In this document: in pieces, positions 40,743 to 41,522 of the stretch
How positions within the stretch are numbered: the stretch's first letter is position 1
How the letters are laid out: each line of letters opens with the position of its first letter
Translations under genes and position numbers: made by a program
Source of the DNA: Halobaculum marinum
Lineage (GTDB): Archaea; Halobacteriota; Halobacteria; Halobacteriales; Haloferacaceae
Length of the DNA stretch: 64,000 nucleotides
Assembly: GCF_029338555.1 (NCBI RefSeq)
Contig: NZ_CP119989.1
Span: 2,542,001-2,606,000 of the forward strand
Direction: 5' to 3'
The notes under the pieces: model-generated
The model's input: only the letters and a program-made list of their open reading frames with translations
Told to the model about the DNA's origin: nothing
Database searches by the model: none

Positions 40743-40845
40743 GCCGAAGTAGCTCAGCTGGTAGAGCGCCTCGCTGTTACGGGATTCAGGTCCCCTGTCT
40801 CCCGCAGATACGAGGTGGTCCCAGGTTCGAGTCCTGGCTTCGGCG
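40743..40845 (+). tRNA. tRNA-Asn (anticodon GTT) with 30-nt BHB intron
   Basis: Acceptor GCCGAAG/CTTCGGC, D stem GCTC/GAGC, anticodon stem CCTCG/CGAGG, anticodon GTT at 40776-40778, T arm CCAGG-TTCGAGT-CCTGG, discriminator G; no CCA. The intron is 40780-40809, between positions 37 and 38. The bulge-helix-bulge is complete: three-base bulges TAC and ATA, central four-pair helix CTGT with GCAG, inner helix GGGA with TCCC. A ctttcaaatt TATA-like element lies about 40710-40720. Confidence 0.93.
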
Positions 40846-40915
40846 CTTCTTTCCGACCTCACTCGCAGAGGTATTCTATCGGTATCCTTACCGAACATCC
40901 GATCCACTCGTCGTC

Positions 40916-41428
40916 GTGGACGAGCGACAGGATCGGTTCGAGCAGCTCGAAACGACGGAGAAACGAGGACAAGCGAGCGAGGCGATTCTGAAAGCTGCGT
41001 TCCTCACGCGGGGGATTCCCGTGTTGACGCCAGAGTACGACAACGAACCCTACGACTTCGTGATCGACCTCTCCGGCACCTTCCACCGGATCCAAGCGAA
41101 GACGGCGTATCGCGGAAAACCTGAGACGGTTCAGTTCGAGACGGTTCGAACGAGAACTCGGAGCGAGGGATACGACAGAGAAGGGTATGCCGGCGAAGTC
41201 GAGTTCTTCGCAGTGTACGACCCGATCCACGACGACGCGTACCTCGTCGACGTCGACGACGCGCCCCGTGGGAAAATGGAGATCCGGCGAGAGCCGACTT
41301 CGAACGGGCAACGAGTTGGTGTGAACTGGTTCGAGGATCTGCTCCTCGATACAGTGCTGTCGACCGTCGGGGAGAGAGAGGAAACTACTTGCCGGCGGCC
41401 CGACAACGCCGCAGGCGAGGGCCCGTAG
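40916..41428 (+). CDS. PD-(D/E)XK nuclease between two tRNA genes
   Basis: 170 residues from a GTG at 40916; no ATG suits the open frame. Start region VDERQDRFEQLETTEKRGQ; catalytic set Glu22 (GQASEAIL), Asp47 (NEPYDFVID), and the Gln60-Ala-Lys62 of RIQAKTAY, a QxK variant of the ExK motif. Resembles the PDDEXK family (as in Pfam PDDEXK_5) that includes homing-type enzymes from tRNA introns; this match is from memory. Its stop TAG (41426-41428) lies inside the tRNA-Met gene, and it starts 70 bp after tRNA-Asn. Codon and base usage are AT-richer than in neighbours, suggesting transfer. Substrate unknown. Confidence 0.8.
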   Translation: MDERQDRFEQLETTEKRGQASEAILKAAFLTRGIPVLTPEYDNEPYDFVIDLSGTFHRIQAKTAYRGKPETVQFETVRTRTRSEGYDREGYAGEVEFFAVYDPIHDDAYLVDVDDAPRGKMEIRREPTSNGQRVGVNWFEDLLLDTVLSTVGEREETTCRRPDNAAGEGP

Positions 41429-41522
41429 CTTAGTCTGGTATAGCACCCGGCTCATACTCCGTGCGGCTCCGACCGGCGGATGGGTCACCGGGCGGTCGAG
41501 GGTTCGAATCCCTCCGGGCCCA
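41419..41522 (+). tRNA. tRNA-Met (elongator, anticodon CAT) with 30-nt BHB intron
   Basis: Acceptor GGGCCCG/CGGGCCC, anticodon stem CCCGG/CCGGG, anticodon CAT at 41453-41455, T arm GAGGG-TTCGAAT-CCCTC, discriminator A; no CCA. The intron is 41457-41486, between positions 37 and 38. BHB: bulges TAC and TCA, central helix CTCA with TGGG (one G-U), inner helix TCCG with CGGA. The first base pair of the D-stem lacks the initiator features and the anticodon stem is not GGG/CCC, so elongator tRNA-Met. It overlaps the last 10 nt of the nuclease gene. Confidence 0.92.

Follow-up and report, generated by a model that had tools for sequence, protein, structure and literature searches.

A stretch of 64,000 nucleotides from the archaeon Halobaculum marinum (contig NZ_CP119989.1, positions 2,542,001 to 2,606,000), referred to herein as the window, carries a small gene for a PD-(D/E)XK nuclease between a tRNA-Asn and a tRNA-Met gene, each of which is interrupted by a short intron. 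The features of this locus, in window coordinates, are as follows:

40743..40845, + strand: tRNA-Asn(GTT) gene, the presumed cognate tRNA of the nuclease (Rfam tRNA, 61 bits; ARAGORN, Asn with intron)
40780..40809, + strand: tRNA-Asn intron, 30 nt, following position 37; it would interrupt the proposed nuclease target (intron-aware ARAGORN)
40850..41375, strand not applicable: inserted segment, limits approximate, missing from the Asn-Met interval in 10 of 10 congeners (empty-site alignment)
40916..41428, + strand: PDDEXK_5 (I-Ssp6803I-like) nuclease, 170 residues, GTG start (PF11645, 2OST match, AlphaFold2 model)
40979..41101, + strand: catalytic span, with Glu22 at 40979-40981, Asp47 at 41054-41056, and Gln60 and Lys62 at 41093-41101 (invariant in 34 relatives)
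41379..41418, + strand: tRNA-Met upstream region, GGAAACTACTTG...GGCCCGACAA, kept in empty sites and overlapped by the nuclease frame (empty-site alignment)
41419..41522, + strand: tRNA-Met(CAT, elongator) gene, bases 8-10 of which are the nuclease stop codon (Rfam; ARAGORN)
41457..41486, + strand: tRNA-Met intron, 30 nt, after position 37 (ARAGORN; congener comparison)

This arrangement, a nuclease gene flanked by two tRNA genes with a 30-nt intron after position 37 in each, had been proposed in a first-pass annotation of the window and was recovered by Rfam and by ARAGORN run with its intron option, which was required as the default settings (bacterial code, introns off) missed both tRNAs. 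Introns of this type, at 37/38, appear to be archaeal bulge-helix-bulge (BHB) tRNA introns, being short and foldable in that form, and the predicted fold of the tRNA-Asn intron is compatible with such a motif. An Rfam scan of 36-46 kb detected no group I intron, its only matches being the two tRNAs; with no such intron around the open reading frame (ORF), the nuclease is not group I intron-encoded.

The encoded protein matched the PF11645 (PDDEXK_5) profile (E = 2e-25; 89.7 bits against a curated cut-off of 26.1); NCBIfam holds no model for it. Using phmmer we found a match to I-Ssp6803I (PDB 2OST; E = 1e-4), and when the AlphaFold2 model of the protein (predicted local distance difference test score 89.5) was searched with Foldseek, the top four PDB matches were all 2OST chains, with E values down to 1e-9. 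The residues of its E-D-Q-x-K active site, Glu22, Asp47, Gln60 and Lys62, which had already been singled out in the first-pass annotation, were invariant across 34 aligned relatives. By profile, active site and modelled fold, the window gene is assigned to the PDDEXK_5 / I-Ssp6803I family, and the kinship to a tRNA-Met group I-intron nuclease that had been pointed to in the first-pass annotation is borne out by both the sequence and the structure searches. I-Ssp6803I, the best match on both counts, is the enzyme by which a cyanobacterial tRNA-fMet intron homes. Its gene lies inside that group I intron. By contrast, the gene in the window, like its relatives, stands alone next to a tRNA gene, in most cases for a different tRNA, and the introns nearby are protein-spliced BHB introns of 30-40 nt. 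Among the closest pairs of the clade to which the window protein belongs (the Asn-Met clade), dN/dS was mostly 0.04-0.22; the protein is therefore kept functional by purifying selection.

As had also been noted, the base composition of the ORF is shifted towards AT relative to its surroundings (60.8% G+C versus 69.7% for the window; at third codon positions 74% versus 89-93% in neighbouring genes). A tblastn search against plasmids returned no match. The TAG stop of the ORF does coincide with bases 8-10 of tRNA-Met, as first described, but the accompanying idea that the gene uses the host tRNA to end its frame did not hold. Since the closest relatives that occupy the same interval between tRNA-Asn and tRNA-Met mostly stop 28-45 bp short of tRNA-Met, the shared stop is an incidental, local accident peculiar to the window copy, and we rejected it as a functional feature. 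The final ~18 codons of the window ORF cross the tRNA-Met upstream region, which nuclease-free congeners also conserve. Overlap between a nuclease and a downstream tRNA was also seen in unrelated phage copies (My1, Sf-FR1, phi-pp2).

In all 10 congeners sampled, the tRNA-Asn and tRNA-Met genes are kept as a pair, ~85-130 bp apart, with no nuclease between them, and the block upstream of tRNA-Met is present in these empty sites. Such nuclease-free relatives with the same tRNA pair had been named beforehand as support for an insertion. The tRNA-Met intron is found in all congeners, with or without the nuclease, and a link between the nuclease and this intron was rejected on that ground. The tRNA-Asn intron is found in seven of the 11 species, the nuclease-bearing one included; it is present in six nuclease-free congeners and missing in four. 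Across the seven congeneric species the tRNA-Asn intron (window 40780-40809; loci L032-L040) is near-identical, while the adjoining tRNA-Met intron is variable, which suggests that the Asn intron spread recently among the congeners.

PF11645 was present in 192 of the 391 genomes sampled from the class. A tRNA gene lies within 800 bp in 133 of 137 haloarchaeal loci (median 161 bp), on the same strand in all 133, against a chance expectation of 2-3% estimated from about 50 tRNA genes per 3.5 Mb. The homologues are thus almost always next to tRNA genes, the second kind of support that had been named, and the proposal of a homing-type nuclease inserted beside tRNA genes is upheld in its genomic aspects. 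A further 33 loci, mostly from the same taxonomic family, comprised 26 with a tRNA and seven without. Two of these additional loci, L299 and L317, are the only opposite-strand cases seen; in both the nuclease is reversed between two intron-bearing copies of tRNA-Asn, intact in L299 and a remnant in L317. Among the four tRNA-less exceptions of the main set, L118 retains a tRNA-Pro 3' end with an integrase-like gene inserted ahead of it. This gene (L118:1340-1450) ends right before what remains of tRNA-Pro, 14 nt of its 3' end, and a Pro-linked nuclease follows downstream, an arrangement that suggests integration into the variant tRNA.

When tRNA identity was mapped onto the nuclease tree, nine label changes were needed (minimum seven; mean of 45 after shuffling), so that nearly every nuclease clade corresponds to a single tRNA identity and vice versa. 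The window protein falls in the Asn-Met clade (support 100/99), alongside sequences from other genera and from another family. Labels of Tyr, Gly and Gln on some intron-bearing tRNAs were discarded, ARAGORN having misread the anticodons of what are Asn and Arg tRNAs. Regions downstream of tRNA genes generally vary, and small nuclease genes might pile up there merely as passive passengers of insertion hotspots. We consider this highly improbable in view of the strict clade-to-tRNA fidelity, the same-strand orientation, the linked tRNA alleles described below and the immediate adjacency to the tRNA with no integrase.

The tRNA genes beside the nucleases mostly differ from the standard allele. 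Asn-linked nucleases accompany an intron-bearing tRNA-Asn in 17 genomes, none with a broken nuclease, and an intronless one in six, where the nuclease is broken in three and the stem is different in one (G095). In Halorubrum, the tRNA-Asn intron was found in 16 of 21 nuclease-bearing genomes versus at most one of 12 nuclease-free genomes (p = 2e-4, kinship ignored, as in every association test here). Intronless tRNA-Lys was seen in 0/9 nuclease-linked genes versus 16/22 genes of nuclease-free congeners in three genera (p = 2e-4). All three nuclease-linked tRNA-Arg genes have introns, and the intronless form was seen in 232 of 391 genomes. Since introns are absent from the mature tRNA, this linkage points to recognition of the gene (DNA) rather than of the tRNA. 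The same evidence bears on the idea that the enzyme is a toxin that cleaves tRNA and that the linked tRNA variant is its antidote. The clade-to-tRNA match and the stem changes would fit RNA recognition too, but for Asn, Lys and Arg the variant that goes with the nuclease is an intron, and an intron that has been spliced out could not protect the mature tRNA; moreover, both the fold and the closest relative are those of DNA endonucleases; we give this idea almost no credence.

For tRNA-Pro and tRNA-Asp, it is the anticodon stem that differs. The tRNA-Pro(TGG) locus is syntenic within the genus. Its tRNA is 97-100% identical among four nuclease-free species (84% in the 300 bp upstream), while three divergent types are spread over the seven nuclease-bearing species. 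Between nuclease-free and nuclease-bearing species tRNA-Pro identity is 83%, little above the 77% of the flanks. We surveyed 148 genomes of the taxonomic family and obtained the tRNA-Pro sequence in 136. A CGGGC/GCCCG anticodon stem was found in 107 of these genes, with an adjacent nuclease or remnant in 0/107, while all 12 tRNA-Pro genes with an adjacent nuclease or remnant have a non-consensus stem (Fisher 1e-9). Nuclease-linked tRNA-Pro genes outside the family likewise lack the consensus stem. In Halorubrum one and the same variant tRNA-Pro occurs with intact nucleases, with a stop-containing one, with a deleted remnant and, in six genomes, with none, a series that reads as the life cycle of a homing gene, with the tRNA left behind. 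In all, seven genomes have kept the variant tRNA-Pro although the nuclease is broken or gone. The largest nuclease clade, Asp clade III, comprises 58 loci in at least six families, and in 57 of these the adjacent tRNA-Asp has a stem other than the common CGACC, namely CAACC (55), CGGCC or TCACC. Asp clades I and II lie beside CGACC in 32 of 33 loci, the sole exception having an internal stop.

These data, along with nuclease-free alleles at the same site (the 10 congeners and the Pro locus), a sporadic distribution (192/391 genomes) and broken and lost copies, are the features of a homing-type element. We therefore think it probable that these are homing endonucleases of the free-standing kind, each of which cuts its cognate tRNA gene in the anticodon region and spreads together with a cut-resistant copy of that gene. 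Each nuclease lineage would specialise on one tRNA gene, beside which it is directly inserted. The enzyme would cut the anticodon region of the recipient's standard, uninterrupted tRNA gene, and recombinational repair would then copy the donor locus, with both the nuclease and the uncuttable tRNA allele, into the recipient. Protection of the allele could arise by two routes, through a short BHB intron at 37/38, as in Asn, Lys and Arg, or through altered anticodon-stem base pairs, as in Pro and the main Asp clade. The nuclease would later decay and disappear, and the altered tRNA would remain. That the enzyme cuts DNA, where exactly it cuts, and that introns or stem changes protect the tRNA gene are all inferred from these patterns. 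The first-pass annotation had suggested the unspliced tRNA locus as a possible target. The intronless gene is the likelier one and the intron more plausibly confers immunity; the Met intron occurs in all congeners regardless of the nuclease.

Several observations weigh against this explanation. Six nuclease-free congeners also have the tRNA-Asn intron, which in them may be the scar of a past nuclease. Apparently intact nucleases lie beside a standard intronless tRNA-Asn in at least three species (H. aquaticum, H. tebenquichense and H. kocurii), L016 of Asp clade III has intact active-site residues beside the common Asp stem, and the association of Asp clades I and II with the common stem leaves their protection unexplained. 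The gap between tRNA and nuclease in haloarchaea is 50-500 bp, and therefore the insertion itself leaves the tRNA unsplit. The tests of stem or intron against nuclease presence carry no phylogeny correction. Finally, the seven tRNA-less additional loci, together with L027 and L029, form a divergent, low-scoring haloarchaeal PF11645 subfamily that does not have tRNA neighbours; in its members (L027, L029, L308, L309, L312-L316) no tRNA gene was found within 1.5 kb.

Some of these points would be accommodated if the enzymes recognised the tRNA 3' end plus the spacer, a site destroyed by the insertion, with the tRNA variants and introns being co-converted hitchhikers that confer no immunity. In most loci the insertion is just downstream of the tRNA, phage nucleases begin 2-50 bp from an intact tRNA, and intact nucleases occur beside standard intronless tRNA-Asn and common-stem Asp. 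Yet hitchhiking leaves unexplained the tie of Asp clade III to an altered stem (57/58 loci in many families), the presence of unrelated stem types, and never the consensus stem, beside the Pro nucleases, and the recurrence of introns in Asn, Lys and Arg. We regard this alternative as unlikely, and continue to favour cleavage of the anticodon region.

Relatives of the nuclease also occur in viruses. Among 34 viral loci, which include several near-duplicates, 25 have a same-strand tRNA within about 350 bp and 22 within 100 bp. These tRNA-adjoining relatives are found in the haloviruses HSTV-4 and HRTV-24, in Ackermannviridae, and in T5-like, T4-like and other phages. A restriction-like defence enzyme, directed against viruses or integrating elements that bring in a standard tRNA gene or an attP tRNA fragment and sparing the host by its altered tRNA as a self mark, would have its targets at hand: tRNA arrays occur in haloviruses and phages, integration often takes place at tRNA genes, and L118 shows an integrase-type insertion at a variant tRNA-Pro. 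However, the same nucleases are themselves carried within viral tRNA arrays, their presence is sporadic, with decay and loss, and no defence-island context was seen, although no systematic search for one was made. A role in defence is thus quite improbable.

Homing by tRNA-associated, free-standing enzymes has precedents. SegB, a GIY-YIG enzyme of T4/T6 phages that is likewise free-standing beside tRNA genes, cuts tRNA-containing DNA and promotes inheritance of the tRNA region, and a 2026 paper reports that it shows no preference for particular tRNA isotypes (PMC13096335). The SegB fold is unrelated, and in contrast to its lack of isotype preference the PDDEXK_5 clades keep to one tRNA and to a specific allele. 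In collaborative homing, which is reviewed along with free-standing homing in PMC3984707, a free-standing nuclease is paired with an ORF-less group I intron. The system proposed here would resemble it in that the nuclease is separate, its target would be the intron insertion site, and intron and nuclease would spread together, but the intron would be a BHB intron without catalytic RNA and stem changes can replace it. The hypothesis of Randau and Soll, as cited in PMC4390854 and PMC3293823, holds that tRNA introns shield tRNA genes from integrating elements. As presented there, it shares with our proposal an intron that protects a tRNA gene from a mobile element; the danger here would come from a nuclease specific for one tRNA, and the gene for that nuclease would move together with the allele that is protected from it. 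In the open-access papers searched we found no description of tRNA-linked PDDEXK_5 nucleases, of the linked tRNA alleles or of a link to BHB introns.

More tentatively, and with a likelihood that we put a little short of even, haloarchaeal tRNA genes may be locked in a continuing arms race with homing nucleases specific to individual tRNAs. Each nuclease would spread along with a form of its target tRNA that resists cutting, and this process, akin to a gene drive, may be a main cause both of the scattered occurrence of BHB introns in the tRNA genes of these archaea and of the abrupt replacement of tRNAs. If so, what had been a one-member curiosity (I-Ssp6803I) would become a broad family of tRNA-gene nucleases in archaea and phages, mostly outside introns; there would be a testable driver for why archaeal tRNA introns come and go; and the swap of an essential, highly conserved tRNA gene for a divergent one would be explained. 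The linked tRNA alleles predict the base pairs read by each enzyme and could aid in finding new site-specific DNA cutters.

Further observations concern individual relatives. Some Pro-linked nucleases have two or three tandem domains per polypeptide (L180, L182, L188, L190, L194, L195, L012, L015, L109), as if a multimer were evolving into a single chain. On a Halorubrum chromosome, a PDDEXK_5 gene (L306; G241:C3:891348-894644) lies within a dense, provirus-like array that includes eight or more tRNA genes (Asp, Pro, three Ser, two Leu and Tyr). In three Ackermannviridae loci (L343, L380, L381) a tRNA-Asn directly precedes the nuclease, and its anticodon stem differs at pair 31-39 from that of E. 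coli tRNA-Asn. Split DNA polymerase genes are the kind of site where homing genes occur, and in Pseudomonas phage BUCT640 (L391) the gene for a PDDEXK_5 relative overlaps the pieces of such a polymerase gene, away from any tRNA.
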